This document shows, piece by piece, positions 2,718-7,214 of a stretch of DNA of 20,857 nt. A model generated the notes under the pieces. That model saw nothing but the letters and a program-made list of their open reading frames with translations, searched no databases and was not told the origin of the DNA. The translations under genes and the position numbers were made by a program. Origin of the DNA: a virus; the IMG/VR virus record IMGVR_UViG_3300028027_000284, positions 1 to 20,857 of that record. One strand, written 5' to 3'. How positions within the stretch are numbered: position 1 is the first letter of the stretch; each line of letters begins with the position of its first letter.

Positions 2718-3334
2718 AAGTAATCGTATCACTTGACAATCCGAATCATGCAGGGTGGTTAAAGTTAGAGGAATCCCTTAAACGGCATGGATGGGATTAC
2801 CATCCAATCGTAAAAGAATGGAAAGGGTTTGGCACTAAGATAATAGGACTTTACGAGTACCTTTGTTCAACCGATACGGATGAGTTCATTTACTTGGATG
2901 CATACGATAACTACTGCATAGCAGGACCTCAAGAGTTCAAGTTTAAAAAGAAAGACTACCCTATGATAGTATCAAGTGAGAAAGGGTGTTATCCTGACAC
3001 GCATAAAATGGGAATGTTTCCTGTGGTATACCATGAATGGAAGTATTTAAATAGTGGGCAGATATACGGAAACAAGGAACATTTTCTTAATGTATACCTT
3101 AGCAACCCTCCGAGGTTTGAGGATGATGACCAGAGGTGGTACACTGAACGCTTCCTTGCAATGCCTTACAGCATAGGACTTGACTATTGTAACATCTTTC
3201 AATCAGTAGCGTTTGAGGTTGAAGGTGACTTTACTTTAACCTATAATAGATTGTACAATAATAAGACCCATACCTTTCCTATGTTTATTCATGGGAACGG
3301 GAAAACCGATATGACTAAATTTTACGCACTATGA
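2714..3334 (+). CDS. PLOD/LH3-like glycosyltransferase (procollagen-type GT domain)
   Basis: This 206-residue single-domain protein keeps the ordered motifs of the glycosyltransferase domain of lysyl hydroxylases (human LH3/PLOD3). They are IYLDAYD (59-65, a DxxD metal-binding pair D62/D65), LNSGQIYG (112-119, compare LNSGGFIG in LH3), EDDDQRWYTERF (136-147), LDYCNIFQ (156-163) and FIHGNGKT (191-198), where the His is the third metal ligand in LH3. The fold should bind Mn2+ and a UDP-sugar. The animal enzymes glycosylate hydroxylysine, but no hydroxylase domain or separate hydroxylase is seen here, so the acceptor is unknown. Similar domains occur in other viruses and bacteria. It is coupled by ATGA overlaps on both sides. 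Confidence 0.85.
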   Translation: MKVIVSLDNPNHAGWLKLEESLKRHGWDYHPIVKEWKGFGTKIIGLYEYLCSTDTDEFIYLDAYDNYCIAGPQEFKFKKKDYPMIVSSEKGCYPDTHKMGMFPVVYHEWKYLNSGQIYGNKEHFLNVYLSNPPRFEDDDQRWYTERFLAMPYSIGLDYCNIFQSVAFEVEGDFTLTYNRLYNNKTHTFPMFIHGNGKTDMTKFYAL

Positions 3335-4002
3335 TGGAATGGATAGTAAAAGAATACACGGATAAGGTCAACGCAGACCATGAACTAAAAGCATATCGGG
3401 ACTGGATAGAAGAAAACGCATTCGGATTCGGCGAAAGATGCTTTCTTTGGATGTGGAATGAGATAGTACAAAAGATGCCTCAAGAGTTTACCTTTATGGA
3501 GATAGGGGTCTTCAGAGGTCAGATTCTCGGACTGGTTAAACTACTTGCAGACCGACACGGCAAAAAGGTTAGGCGAATCGGAATCACACCACTTGATTCA
3601 TCTGATGGTCATTGGGAATCTGACTACGAAGCAGATATTATAAGACTTCACGATGAGTTTGATATTACGGCAGACTATGAGTTAATCCGTTTAGATTCAA
3701 CCAATCCAAACGCAGTTAAACTTGCATCTCAGAATCCTCCTGATGTACTTTATATTGATGGAGGGCATACCTATGAGGTGGTAATGGCAGACCTCAATAA
3801 CTATCTACCTATTCTCAAGGTAGGCGGTACACTGGTCATTGATGACTGTAACAACGCAATACCAATGCCTTGGGGTTACTTCGCAGGGATTCAATCGGTA
3901 TCAAACGCAGTAGACCAATTCCTGCCAAGAGAAGGACAGACAGAACATTGGAAGCATGAACTAAACTTGGTGCATAATCGTGTACTCACTAAACTGAAAT
4001 AA
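3331..4002 (+). CDS. SAM-dependent class I methyltransferase (Methyltransf_24-like)
   Basis: This 223-residue protein has the Rossmann-type SAM-binding motif FMEIGVFRGQ (about 55-64), with the acidic E57 and glycine turn. Motif DVLYIDGGHTYE (138-149) and then VGGTLVIDDCNN (164-175) follow. The YIDGGHTYEVVMADL segment is characteristic of sugar or small-molecule O-methyltransferases of the Methyltransf_24 / cephalosporin-hydroxylase-like group, where the DD pair often binds a metal. Following three glycosyltransferases with a 4-nt overlap, it may cap or modify the added sugar; that is inference. It is not a typical DNA methyltransferase: no DPPY or PCQ motif is present. TerS begins 1 nt downstream, so the modification genes run straight into the packaging genes. 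Confidence 0.85.
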   Translation: MMEWIVKEYTDKVNADHELKAYRDWIEENAFGFGERCFLWMWNEIVQKMPQEFTFMEIGVFRGQILGLVKLLADRHGKKVRRIGITPLDSSDGHWESDYEADIIRLHDEFDITADYELIRLDSTNPNAVKLASQNPPDVLYIDGGHTYEVVMADLNNYLPILKVGGTLVIDDCNNAIPMPWGYFAGIQSVSNAVDQFLPREGQTEHWKHELNLVHNRVLTKLK

Positions 4003-4003
4003 G

Positions 4004-4435
4004 ATGGCAAAGAGAGGAGAAAATAAACCACCAATAAAGCAAAAATACATAGACACACCCGATAATCTTCTAAAGATATGGGATGAGTATAAGCAACACA
4101 TTGACAATAATCCAGATGTCCAAGAGATAGCAACGGGTAAAGGTGTGCAAGTTATAAGGGTTAAGAAACCATACCAAAAAGTAGGGTTTGAGAGTTTTGT
4201 TTTTAGGAATTATGGGTTCAATGTTCATCAATATATTGACAATTATAAGGGTGCATACGATTCCTATTTGGGAGTCGTTACGTGTATGAGAAGAGAATGG
4301 GAGGAAGACCAAATAGAGGGAACGCTTACAGGTAGATACAAAGCACCTAATTTGGTAGCAAGACTTAACAACCTGGTAGAGAAGACTGAGAATAAACATG
4401 AGGTAAGTGAGATAAAGATAACGAGGGATAGATAA
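4004..4435 (+). CDS. terS: Terminase small subunit (P22 gp3-like)
   Basis: This 143-residue protein lies immediately before the large terminase. Its sequence (TPDNLLKIWDEYKQHID, then KPYQKVGFESFVFRNYGF, YLGVVTCMRREWEEDQIEG, YKAPNLVARLNNLVEK) follows the pattern of P22 gp3-like and Bacteroidota-phage small terminases: a DNA-recognition N-terminal part and a helical oligomerisation part. TerS recognises the packaging initiation site and hands the DNA to TerL. It starts 1 nt after the methyltransferase stop. A short dyad follows its stop codon and could be a binding site. The identification rests on position plus pattern. Confidence 0.8.
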   Translation: MAKRGENKPPIKQKYIDTPDNLLKIWDEYKQHIDNNPDVQEIATGKGVQVIRVKKPYQKVGFESFVFRNYGFNVHQYIDNYKGAYDSYLGVVTCMRREWEEDQIEGTLTGRYKAPNLVARLNNLVEKTENKHEVSEIKITRDR

Positions 4436-4459: not shown

Positions 4460-4467
4460 AGTTGAAT

Positions 4468-5640
4468 ATGCAAATAAATGTAAAACTACATAACCCACAC
4501 GATGCTCAAAAGAAGGTCATAGATTGCGATAAAAGGTTTATCGTAATGATGGCAGGGCGAAGGTTTGGCAAGTCCTTAATCAGTCAGACAATTGCCTTAG
4601 AAAGCGGTATAGAGGGTAAGAGGGTGGCATACATTACACCAACGTATCAACTCGGTAAAATATTCTTTCAGGAGTTGCTTGATATGTTACCCATTGAGAT
4701 TTACAAAAAGAATGAGGCAGACTTGGTCATAACCTTTATCACAGGTGGAACAATCCGATTCTTCACAGGTGAAAGGTTGGACAATCTCCGAGGTCTGAAG
4801 TTTCACCTTTGTATCATTGATGAAGCATCTTTCATCCCTGATTTAGAGGGTGGATGGTTAAACTCCATCCGTCCCACTTTAACTGATTATAAGGGACGGG
4901 CATTGTTCCTGTCTACCCCAAAGGGTAAGAACTACTTCTATTCTCTTTTTATGAAAGGGAACGGAGGGGAAGAAGATTGGCAATCGTTTAAGTTTAGCAC
5001 ATATGACAATCCATACATAGATAAGTCAGAGGTTGATTCGGCAAGGATGCAATTACCTGAAGTAGTCTTTGAACAGGAGTACATGGCGAACCCTGCCGAG
5101 AATGCTGCCAATCCTTTTGGGTCTGCTTACATTCGCCAGTGCATATTCCCGATGTCTACCAATCCTGTTGCTTGTTATGGCATTGACCTTGCCAAAGCGG
5201 TTGACTGGACTGTGGTTATAGGACTTGATAAGAACGGGTCTGTATGCCATTATGAACGATTTCAGAGGGATTGGAGGCAGACTAAGGAGTATATCATCAA
5301 TCTACCTAAAGCACCTATCCTAATGGATTCTACGGGGGTAGGAGACCCAATCTTTGAAGATATGCAAAGGGAGGGTCTTGATGTGCAAGGGTATAAATTT
5401 AGCAGTACCTCAAAGCAGATGCTAATGGAGGGACTTGCATCTGCTATTCATCAAAGGAAGATAACCTTCCCACCTGGTCCTATCGTTGATGAACTTGAAA
5501 TCTTTGAGTACCAGTACACATCCTTTGGGGTAAAGTACTCAGCACCTCAAGGATTCCATGACGATTGCGTTGTTAGTCTGTCCCTTGCTTGGCAACATCT
5601 CCAAAAGAATGTAGGCAGTGGGAGGTATAGTTTTATTTAG
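4468..5640 (+). CDS. terL: Terminase large subunit (ATPase and nuclease)
   Basis: This 390-residue packaging motor shows a Walker A-like AGRRFGKS (about 29-36), a Walker B CIIDEA (about 115-120), and the coupling motif FLSTPKGKNYF. The C-terminal RuvC-like nuclease follows, with acidic clusters in YGIDLAKAVDWTVV, LMDSTGVGDP and FHDDCVVSLSLAW. It translocates DNA into proheads and cuts concatemers. Both ATPase and nuclease motifs are intact, so it appears functional. The frame also allows a TTG start at 4462, but ATG 4468 (MQINVKLHNP) is preferred. The length is slightly short for TerL but complete in motifs. The portal gene is not adjacent, unlike in most phages. Confidence 0.96.
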   Translation: MQINVKLHNPHDAQKKVIDCDKRFIVMMAGRRFGKSLISQTIALESGIEGKRVAYITPTYQLGKIFFQELLDMLPIEIYKKNEADLVITFITGGTIRFFTGERLDNLRGLKFHLCIIDEASFIPDLEGGWLNSIRPTLTDYKGRALFLSTPKGKNYFYSLFMKGNGGEEDWQSFKFSTYDNPYIDKSEVDSARMQLPEVVFEQEYMANPAENAANPFGSAYIRQCIFPMSTNPVACYGIDLAKAVDWTVVIGLDKNGSVCHYERFQRDWRQTKEYIINLPKAPILMDSTGVGDPIFEDMQREGLDVQGYKFSSTSKQMLMEGLASAIHQRKITFPPGPIVDELEIFEYQYTSFGVKYSAPQGFHDDCVVSLSLAWQHLQKNVGSGRYSFI

Positions 5641-5772: not shown

Positions 5773-6123
5773 ATGACATTTTTAACATTAGAACAATTAA
5801 TGAAAAATGATACTTATAAAATGTTATTGCAGAAAAGTGAGCAAGACTATTTTACTAAGGATAAGGTAAAAATGCCATCAATATCTAAAATTCAAAACCT
5901 ACTCCAAGATATTGGAATAGAAGTATTTGAAACTTATGAAAAAGACACATTAAAGGTTGGTAGAATACCAAATTATATTTATCGTGCAGATGGTACACCT
6001 ATTCAGCATGGTTACGGTTATGAAATTAAGTTTAGTACAAGAGATGGTTATTATTCAAGAAATACTCCAATTCATGCCAAAAAAGTTATAGATTACATAG
6101 AAAACTGGATTGGGAAAAAATAA
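5773..6123 (+). CDS. Hypothetical protein, AT-rich moron-like gene
   Basis: I do not recognise this 116-residue protein. It is soluble, Lys- and Tyr-rich, and has a helical N-terminal half (TFLTLEQLMKNDTYKMLLQK; SISKIQNLLQDIGIEVFETY) and a strand-rich C-terminal half with GYGYEIKFSTRDGYYS. Its codons are visibly richer in A and T than those of its neighbours. It sits between terL and the tail operon with its own candidate promoter and a 132-nt upstream gap, whereas most genes here are coupled. These are the marks of a moron, a later-acquired gene expressed separately from the virion genes. Superinfection exclusion or anti-defence would be guesses; nothing in the sequence shows either. Confidence 0.7.
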   Translation: MTFLTLEQLMKNDTYKMLLQKSEQDYFTKDKVKMPSISKIQNLLQDIGIEVFETYEKDTLKVGRIPNYIYRADGTPIQHGYGYEIKFSTRDGYYSRNTPIHAKKVIDYIENWIGKK

Positions 6124-6136
6124 TTTTCCAAAAAAC

Positions 6137-6165
6137 TTGGTATTCTAAAATATTTAGTATTTTCG
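6137..6165 (+). promoter_or_regulatory. Candidate Bacteroidota-type promoter for a small RNA
   Basis: TTGGTATT (6137-6144) and TATTTTCG (6158-6165, one mismatch to TAnnTTTG) are separated so that 18 nt lie between TTG and TA, close to the preferred Bacteroidota spacing. The predicted start near 6171-6172 falls right at the first base pairs of the structured RNA that follows. Confidence 0.55.
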
Positions 6166-6170
6166 CATAG

Positions 6171-6264
6171 TCAATCCGAAAGATAGTAGAGTATGTTTCG
6201 GGTTTGATTCATGCAAACCTGCATCAATTAGACCCACCTGCTCTACCAGTGTGGGTTCTTTTTT
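6171..6264 (+). ncRNA. Candidate phage small structured RNA with kissing loops
   Basis: This 94-nt stretch folds into three consecutive hairpins with almost no unpaired linker. H1 pairs 6173-6181 with 6196-6204 (AATCCGAAA/TTTCGGGTT, one G-T pair) around a 14-nt loop. H2 pairs 6211-6215 with 6220-6224 (ATGCA/TGCAT, loop AACC), with TTG 6204-6206 and CAA 6225-6227 able to extend it. H3 is the terminator hairpin. The H1 loop contains GTAGAG (6186-6191), the exact complement of the H3 loop CTCTAC (6241-6246), so a 6-bp loop-loop contact is possible within one molecule or between two. A promoter lies just upstream and a T-tract ends the unit. I do not recognise it as a known RNA class. A frame at 6204-6398 crosses it but shows no protein-like pattern. 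Confidence 0.55.
6232..6264 (+). terminator. Rho-independent terminator of the small RNA
   Basis: ACCCAC (6232-6237) pairs with GTGGGT (6251-6256), extended inward by CTG/CAG across a bulged T, with loop CTCTAC. The run TTCTTTTTTG follows directly. The stem, loop and T-tract are those of an intrinsic terminator. Confidence 0.7.
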
Positions 6265-6380
6265 GTCCGTACCCTATTGATATTGCAAGTAGACCACTAC
6301 CTCTCAAAGTTCTGAATTCAAGGAGTTTAAATCTGTTAAATGAAAAGAAGGATGTAACTTTTTCCCTTTTCAGCCGACTA

Positions 6381-6490
6381 ACCCGATTACCTATGTGACG
6401 GAGTAGATGGTCAGTAGTTGCTTACTCTTGGGGGAGGGGGGCAACTTCTGTCCTGACCAACTTCCCTCATAACCTTGTTCGGGAGTAGAT
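6381..6490 (+). other. Structured leader upstream of the tail operon
   Basis: TGGTCAG (6408-6414) pairs with CTGACCA (6453-6459), and inside it AGTTGC (6416-6421) pairs with GCAACT (6441-6446). The loop holds the G-rich run GGGGGAGGGGG, whose GAGGG (6434-6438) could pair with CCCTC (6464-6468) as a pseudoknot. CCCGA (6382-6386) and TCGGG (6479-6483) could close the whole element. The 9-mer GGAGTAGAT occurs at 6400-6408 and again at 6482-6490. It lies 47 nt before the first tail gene and may be a leader or a packaging-related site. In the rest of the gap, 6265-6380 shows nothing I can support. Confidence 0.4.
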
Positions 6491-6536
6491 AAATATTCAC
6501 TTATACATTATTTCACATTTAAACTATTTAAAGTAT

Positions 6537-7214
6537 ATGAATTGGTCCAACGTAACAGTCTTCCAATACCAGCAGATTAATGAACTTTATGCTAATAGCA
6601 AGGACTTGACTGACCTTGACATATCCGTAAAGGTTGCCTCAATACTGACCAATCAGACTGAGAATCAGATTGATAGTTTACCCGTTAAGGAACTTGGACC
6701 ATTGCTTGAATCCATTGCTTTTATCAATGATGATATTAAACCCGAAGCGGTAAAGGTGTTAAAGATTAACGGAAAGAGGTACAAGTGCGTTTACGATGTG
6801 CGGAATATCCCTGCATCAAGGTACATTGAATCTAAACACTTCAGCAGTGATGTAATGGGGAACTTGCACAAGATTATGGCGTGTATGGTGATACCTCAGA
6901 AGAAAGGATTCTTGGGATGGGTGGATGATAAATACGATGCAGGTAAGCATAGCGACTATGCTCAAGATATGCTTGAAGCACCTATCCAATCCGTTTTAGG
7001 TTCGGTTGTTTTTTTTTATCAAGTATACAGGCTTTGGATAAAGAATTCAAAGGACTTTATGGTCCGACAGATGATGGAGCAGGGGGTGGAGAAGATGAAA
7101 GCGGAAGAAGTGCATCAGGTTTTATGCACCATTATGGATGGATATACCAAACCAAACTGGTTGCCGACTTTGAGGGAATCACACTTGACCAAGCATTTAA
7201 CTTACCTGTCATAA
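6537..7214 (+). CDS. Tail assembly chaperone-like protein, unshifted frame
   Basis: The unshifted product is 225 residues. The N-terminal 150 residues (VFQYQQINELY, INGKRYKCVYDVRNIPASRYIE, VMGNLHKIMACMVIP) look like the first part of tail assembly chaperones that open siphovirus tail modules. At residues 157-160 the codons GTT TTT TTT TAT form a nine-T run. Beyond it this frame continues for 65 residues, but its codons become rich in third-position G, unlike the rest of the genome. The overlapping -1 frame instead looks like typical protein, so a programmed or artefactual frameshift is likely. Such chaperones bind the tape measure and guide tail-tube polymerisation, often as short and frameshifted long forms. 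The gene starts the tail operon after a 413-nt gap. Confidence 0.65.
   Translation: MNWSNVTVFQYQQINELYANSKDLTDLDISVKVASILTNQTENQIDSLPVKELGPLLESIAFINDDIKPEAVKVLKINGKRYKCVYDVRNIPASRYIESKHFSSDVMGNLHKIMACMVIPQKKGFLGWVDDKYDAGKHSDYAQDMLEAPIQSVLGSVVFFYQVYRLWIKNSKDFMVRQMMEQGVEKMKAEEVHQVLCTIMDGYTKPNWLPTLRESHLTKHLTYLS
7009..7017 (+). other. T9 slippery run, candidate -1 frameshift site
   Basis: Nine consecutive T residues are read as (G)TT TTT TTT T(AT) in the upstream frame, giving a T TTT TTT heptamer of the X XXY YYZ type. The -1 frame is open from 6977 through to the stop at 7297. A homopolymer undercall of one T in the assembly would create the same picture. Confidence 0.55.

Follow-up and report, generated by a model that had tools for sequence, protein, structure and literature searches.

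Introduction

Few natural RNAs are known to assemble through covarying loops, namely the packaging RNA (pRNA) of phi29-type phages, GOLLD, ROOL and OLE. Short promoter-terminator transcripts ahead of co-directional genes are familiar from the late leader of lambdoid phages (pR'-tR'), which yields the terminated 6S RNA. In phi29 pRNA, covarying loops that pair over 3-4 nt are required for function and join the molecules hand in hand into multimers (PMC12670572). GOLLD, ROOL and OLE, the first two of which occur in phages, form protein-free homo-oligomers through covarying intermolecular kissing loops (PMC12286853), and RNA I of ColE1 folds into three stem-loops whose loops set its specificity (PMC9458437).

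Here we analyse a predicted RNA of 95 nt that adjoins the terminase gene terL in IMG/VR record IMGVR_UViG_3300028027_000284. The window, by which we mean the whole stretch of 20,857 nt, spans positions 1-20,857 and thus the whole record. Like phi29-type pRNA, this phage RNA measures about 100 nt and has two distinct complementary loops that covary (PMC12670572), but the pairing extends over 6-7 nt instead of 3-4 nt, and the RNA consists of three serial hairpins in an optional cassette that is not tied to the terminase; the partner motor is different and there is no Rfam match. Our best reading is that the RNA would work in the manner of phi29 pRNA loop pairing, yet is no pRNA. With GOLLD, ROOL and OLE it shares a structured fold with covarying kissing loops, its own oligomer being a prediction; it differs in having a single kissing pair and only 95 nt, against about 600 nt in OLE and over 800 nt in many GOLLD RNAs, and in the window and eight relatives we found neither a match to their Rfam models nor a large ornate structure. 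The ColE1 RNA I/RNA II pair resembles it in its three stem-loops and in loop diversification that leads to orthogonal alleles, but RNA I pairs with an overlapping antisense transcript, whereas here both loops lie in one RNA. The lambdoid late leader is likewise a short promoter-terminator transcript before same-direction genes; the difference is that no Q-like factor was identified here and that the cassette is optional and also found inside early operons.

The locus and its relatives

The features discussed below are as follows.

4462-5640, upstream of the RNA: terL, terminase large subunit gene (PHROG 2 match, E 4e-41)
5773-6123, between terL and the RNA: ORF of 116 aa
6137-6165, plus strand: Bacteroidota-type promoter, with TTG at 6137-6139, an 18-nt gap and TATTTTCG (-7 box) at 6158-6165
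6170-6264, plus strand: small RNA (predicted transcript, 95 nt)
6173-6204, plus strand: hairpin 1, compensatory changes at 5 pairs
6186-6191, plus strand: loop 1, GTAGAG, 7 nt in most relatives
6211-6224, plus strand: hairpin 2 (upper stem), compensatory changes at 3 of 4 upper-stem pairs
6231-6257, plus strand: hairpin 3, the terminator hairpin, 99% of cells paired, compensatory changes at 3 pairs
6241-6246, plus strand: loop 3, CTCTAC, partner of loop 1
6258-6264, plus strand: T-tract of the intrinsic terminator, conserved in relatives
6286-6497, plus strand: module A, conserved noncoding, boundaries approximate, compensated stems in the alignment

Relatives were sought with TerL and the ORF at 6537 as starting queries. 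In the loci found, blastn identified 29 distinct copies of the RNA, one of them that of the window. The covariance search that the initial annotation had proposed (model R1), together with scans of all IMG/VR contigs for patterns of the RNA and of module A, expanded the set to 47 distinct RNAs, which score 73-114 bits, and an IMG/VR scan for modules B and E (see below) added further copies beyond the 47. There is one copy per contig. Weak model matches in L132, L134 and L135 (15-20 bits) were discarded as terminator-like hairpins after XRE-type genes only, and minus-strand matches at the same places as mirror images of the RNA hairpins.

DNA searches of INPHARED gave no credible relatives of the RNA, and the nearest TerL among phages has 32% identity. 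Across 84,980 prokaryote genomes a first pattern had 0 matches, and among the 80 listed loci that a relaxed pattern gave and that were rescored, none matched the model (best 14.9 bits), a result that for the relaxed pattern concerns the matches listed and is compatible with distant prophage copies. At gathering cut-offs Rfam returned nothing for the window RNA, in line with its initial description as belonging to no known class, and it gave no match in relatives L158, L176, L145, L172, L153, L150, L002 and L169. At E<=5, window positions 6100-6540 matched only OmrA-B, an identity that we dismiss at 18.6 bits against a gathering threshold of 40 (E 0.45), as we do the trpB motif RF04312 in relatives (21.9-30.3 bits against 59). 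The RNA very likely represents an undescribed, conserved family of uncultured phages, as judged from its sequence relatives. The hosts of these phages are probably Bacteroidota, because of the promoter type and, in L153, a gene next to the RNA that has a BT4734-like domain.

The locus is a mosaic of optional units, comprising small ORFs, HNH endonucleases and a DNA methylase. In the window, the 116-aa ORF has no matches in PHROGs, Pfam or PADLOC and apparently has its own promoter, TTG-TATTTTTG; many relatives have differing small ORFs between terL and the RNA. In a set of more distant relatives (L106, L108, L112, L120, L121, L125 and L137), the interval upstream of the 6537-type ORF holds, by eye, a TATATTTG promoter, a small ORF and an XRE-like ORF. 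ORFs for HNH endonucleases and N6/N4 DNA methylases, possible agents of locus mobility, are inserted before the RNA in L005, L006 and L103, after the module in L004, L008 and L092 and after module C in L146 and L169. In L146 the TerL match (3304-4383) falls into three overlapping pieces of differing identity, which suggests a frameshift or recombination in that contig.

Transcription signals and folding

The promoter, hairpin, loop and T-tract motifs all lie where the initial annotation had placed them, and the promoter, the three hairpins and the T-tract are each conserved in relatives. Counted from the first paired G (G6170), the motif TAnnTTYG occupies precisely positions -12 to -5 in 48/48 distinct upstream regions (as exact TAnnTTTG in 41/48), and the boxes are kept in relatives where the spacer sequence has been replaced. 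The sigma-A -7 box and its position are as reported for Flavobacterium (PMC9723704), and by the spacing convention of that study transcription would start at G6170, one base upstream of the initial placement at 6171. The arrangement of hairpin 3 followed by a T-tract is conserved across relatives. Sigma-70 and terminator scanners listed neither the promoter nor the terminator of the RNA, and our support for both is their conservation in relatives. The fixed distance of the promoter box and the conserved hairpin 3 and T-tract make it very likely that a 95-nt RNA is transcribed.

Protein coding across the RNA was considered and rejected, since the alignment shows frames broken by indels in the loops and in hairpin 2, and ARAGORN found no tRNA or tmRNA. 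The earlier claim of a self-contained noncoding RNA is supported, and we regard the small RNA as very likely real, self-contained and separately transcribed.

The 94-nt sequence 6171-6264 folds at -32.7 kcal/mol, compared with -17.7 +/- 2.9 kcal/mol for dinucleotide shuffles (z = -5.1; 0/200 shuffles as good). Preservation of the stems and of the loop pairing by compensatory changes, on which the initial annotation had staked its proposal, is what the relatives display. Hairpins 1 and 3 each vary in length by one pair and do so independently of each other, as read from the alignment. The loop of hairpin 2 has a conserved AAACC/AACCC, and the whole hairpin is swapped for another in L013, L022, L103, L146 and L164. 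The invariant 5' GUCAA (6170-6174) can pair with UUGAU (6204-6208), which lengthens the base of hairpin 1 and competes with the lower stem of hairpin 2; the choice made by ViennaRNA varies by sequence, and the two are not distinguishable because the pairs are invariant. Pairing of GGTTT (6201-6205) with AAACC (6215-6219), put forward earlier as an alternative to the first two hairpins, is available with at least 5 bp in 45/47 relatives, including a co-changed GGTCT/AGACC, but is predicted to be 5-9 kcal/mol less stable in the examples computed; a second state of the RNA formed in this way is possible.

Complementarity of loops 1 and 3

Complementarity of the two loops, first noticed in the window as GTAGAG and CTCTAC, holds in 47/47 relatives. 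In 19 loop alleles from these 47 RNAs, 323/323 base pairs between the loops are Watson-Crick, without a single G-U, with the loops of L182 set by eye where the model alignment misplaces them, and with six unpaired cells in two columns that reflect gap placement in 6-nt alleles such as the window's own. A 20th allele, GTAGGAG/CTCCTAC, occurs in L312, outside the 47-RNA count. All 7 loop-pair columns have two-sided changes (6-23 sequences each) and no one-sided changes. When the 18 seven-nt alleles were re-dealt at random (20,000 shuffles), a mean of 70/126 and a maximum of 94 pairs were obtained, and the covariation signal was lost when the partners were slid out of register. The complementarity is far beyond chance, and these paired changes show, at the level of the alignment, that loops 1 and 3 of one RNA are held strictly complementary. 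By eye, loop 3 resembles the complement of a tRNA D-arm, a likeness that was dropped, as it is lost in other alleles.

A two-part noncoding cassette

Directly 3' of the RNA, and co-directional with it, lies a conserved noncoding module of about 200-340 nt that occurs in at least five types (A-E). Among 53 distinct cassettes, 30 have module A, 9 B, 6 C, 2 D and 4 E, and the remaining two are cut off or have a tRNA-like insert. Modules B and E begin with one common 23-base pattern and may be related. The same loop allele is found with different modules and the same module with different alleles, which indicates that the parts of the cassette recombine. In scans of IMG/VR, the RNA lay upstream of module A in 33/34 contigs (the last one cut by the contig end), of module C in 6/6, of modules B and E together in 17/17 and of module D in 2/3 (the third cut). 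Modules A-E occur only with the RNA, which is the constant first half of an accessory noncoding cassette, and this cassette behaves like a moron.

For modules A, C, D and E, Rfam gave nothing above the cut-offs with gathering and permissive thresholds. Fold z-scores of the downstream modules range from -2.9 to +0.3 and are mostly unremarkable, so that we rely on their conservation and on the compensated stems of module A in the alignment (AAAAG/CUUUU, GUAUAG/CUAUAC and GGUUAG/CUAACC). Module A also has an optional covarying hairpin and, at about 6397-6492, a direct repeat GGxxUAG ... GGxxUAG with a spacing of 80-90 nt, the copies of which change in step (GGAGUAG, GGUAUAG, GGAAUAG, GGACUGU) and are identical, not complementary. 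Separately, tRNA-like elements were observed in L012 (7577), L110 (396), L147 (minus strand, 1008), L175 (minus strand, 5566) and L310 (4803); they combine an acceptor stem (GTCAGG/CCTGAC or similar) with a T-arm, which is altered in L310, and the anticodon domain is replaced and the D-loop sometimes expanded. ARAGORN found no tRNA in L012, L147 and L175.

Discussion

We give a probability of roughly 0.5 to the whole of our preferred explanation, an accessory phage RNA of about 95 nt whose loops kiss mainly between copies and which serves a second RNA. Host RNA polymerase would start at G6170 from a Bacteroidota sigma-A-type promoter and stop at hairpin 3 and the T-tract, as their conservation suggests. 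The RNA would fold into three hairpins, and the covariation points to a Watson-Crick kissing helix between the 6-7-nt loops 1 and 3. By geometry, kissing would occur mainly between two copies, which would close into a two-fold dimer with loop 1 of either copy paired to loop 3 of its partner. Counting 2.8 A per bp, the rod made up of hairpin 1, the kiss and hairpin 3 (31-34 bp) would be about 87-95 A long, while nothing but hairpin 2 and 0 to about 10 unpaired nt lies between the feet of these two hairpins. An internal kiss would be strained, as the ends of the rod must meet across hairpin 2, a strain from which a closed dimer of two rods would be free. Independent variation of the stem lengths fits the dimer, which closes whatever these lengths are. 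It is very likely that copies of the RNA lock onto each other, most probably as a homodimer, and each phage allele would recognise itself best. The self-associated RNA would then serve the variable second RNA, as their co-occurrence suggests, and not the packaging motor. The cassette may help the phage to take over its host or to contend with host defences or competing phages, a guess that we base on its moron-like, optional and diversifying nature.

The main rival is intramolecular kissing, with the RNA as a cis-acting leader or attenuator in which loop 1 captures loop 3 during transcription and tunes read-through. The loop covariation is compatible with both intermolecular and intramolecular kissing, and the conserved terminator and the promoterless module of many relatives would fit a cis-acting leader equally well. 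The terminator hairpin itself carries loop 3, the conserved module always follows directly 3' and co-directionally, and in the phages of 50-63 kb the linker has no TAnnTTTG box, so that the module would need read-through; by eye, there is also no T-run terminator between the module and the next ORF. The next genes vary between phages, however, the empty-site relatives described below do without the whole arrangement, and a 7-bp intramolecular kiss is sterically strained, although about 10 unpaired nt and hairpin 2 might span the gap if the lower stem of hairpin 2 were open. Weighing both sides, we hold the attenuator to be possible but on the unlikely side.

A trans-acting antisense small RNA, in which loop 1, loop 3 or both would nucleate pairing with mRNA of the phage or its host and the loop-loop pairing would only mask this seed, would be in keeping with the RNA's own promoter, terminator and exposed loops, and phage small RNAs that target host RNAs have precedents (PMC12197685, PMC4104026). 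Both loops of this RNA, however, are free to vary provided that they stay complementary, and a third-party target would have to change too; we think this reading quite improbable.

The initial annotation had offered a packaging-related or a regulatory RNA, and it is the packaging half of this proposal that the relatives contradict. A pRNA-like RNA of the adjoining terminase motor was suggested by the position of the RNA beside terL in the window's phage group and by the complementary loops, which resemble those of phi29 pRNA (PMC12670572). Against this, the RNA is absent in L010 and L011, whose TerL is 97-98% identical to that of the window, and also in L020 (84%). In all three, terL is followed directly by the 6537-type ORF and the RNA is found nowhere in the contigs (19.4, 34.6 and 33.2 kb); these records are classed as fragments in IMG/VR, and a lost end, though possible, would have to remove the same element three times. 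In other phage groups, the RNA lies in early regions beside genes for dNMP kinase, DnaB-like primase/helicase or Erf, and in several such contigs (33-63 kb) it is on the opposite strand and at least 14 kb from TerL, which in the early-region phages is of another family, PHROG 6681; in L153, L158 and L307 it is about 1.5-2.5 kb upstream of TerL. The TerL of the window is a phrog_2-type terminase, which we take to be distinct from phi29 gp16, and no Rfam pRNA family was matched even at E<=5. The empty sites with near-identical TerL and the RNAs far from an unrelated TerL lead us to reject a packaging role, and on this comparative evidence we consider the RNA refuted as an essential part of packaging, with hardly any credence left for a pRNA-like function. 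The stretch might also act as DNA and not as an RNA gene, for instance as a site of recombination or of packaging initiation that contains inverted repeats. This would suit a mosaic site of module exchange, but the fixed-distance promoter box and T-tract are conserved on one strand only, and it is hard to see what duplex DNA would gain from complementary loops in separate hairpins; we find this reading scarcely credible.

Returning to the preferred reading of an RNA that kisses between copies, a more far-reaching form of it, which we offer tentatively and consider rather unlikely, is a mobile two-RNA system of phages, made of a constant, self-recognising kissing RNA with allele-specific loops and one of several unrelated, interchangeable structured RNAs. 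Loop identity would distinguish self from non-self and so determine the output of the second RNA, for instance through control of read-through that varies with concentration, and co-infecting phages with different alleles would not interfere with each other.

For the study of phage genomes, this locus illustrates that a packaging role can hardly be read from adjacency to terL alone. The cassette points to several undescribed structured phage RNAs that in every case accompany the kissing RNA. The kissing RNA itself is small and easily made in vitro, with a loop pair of 6-7 bp and at least 20 natural versions, and this combination of small size and many natural versions makes RNA self-recognition and its evolution directly testable.
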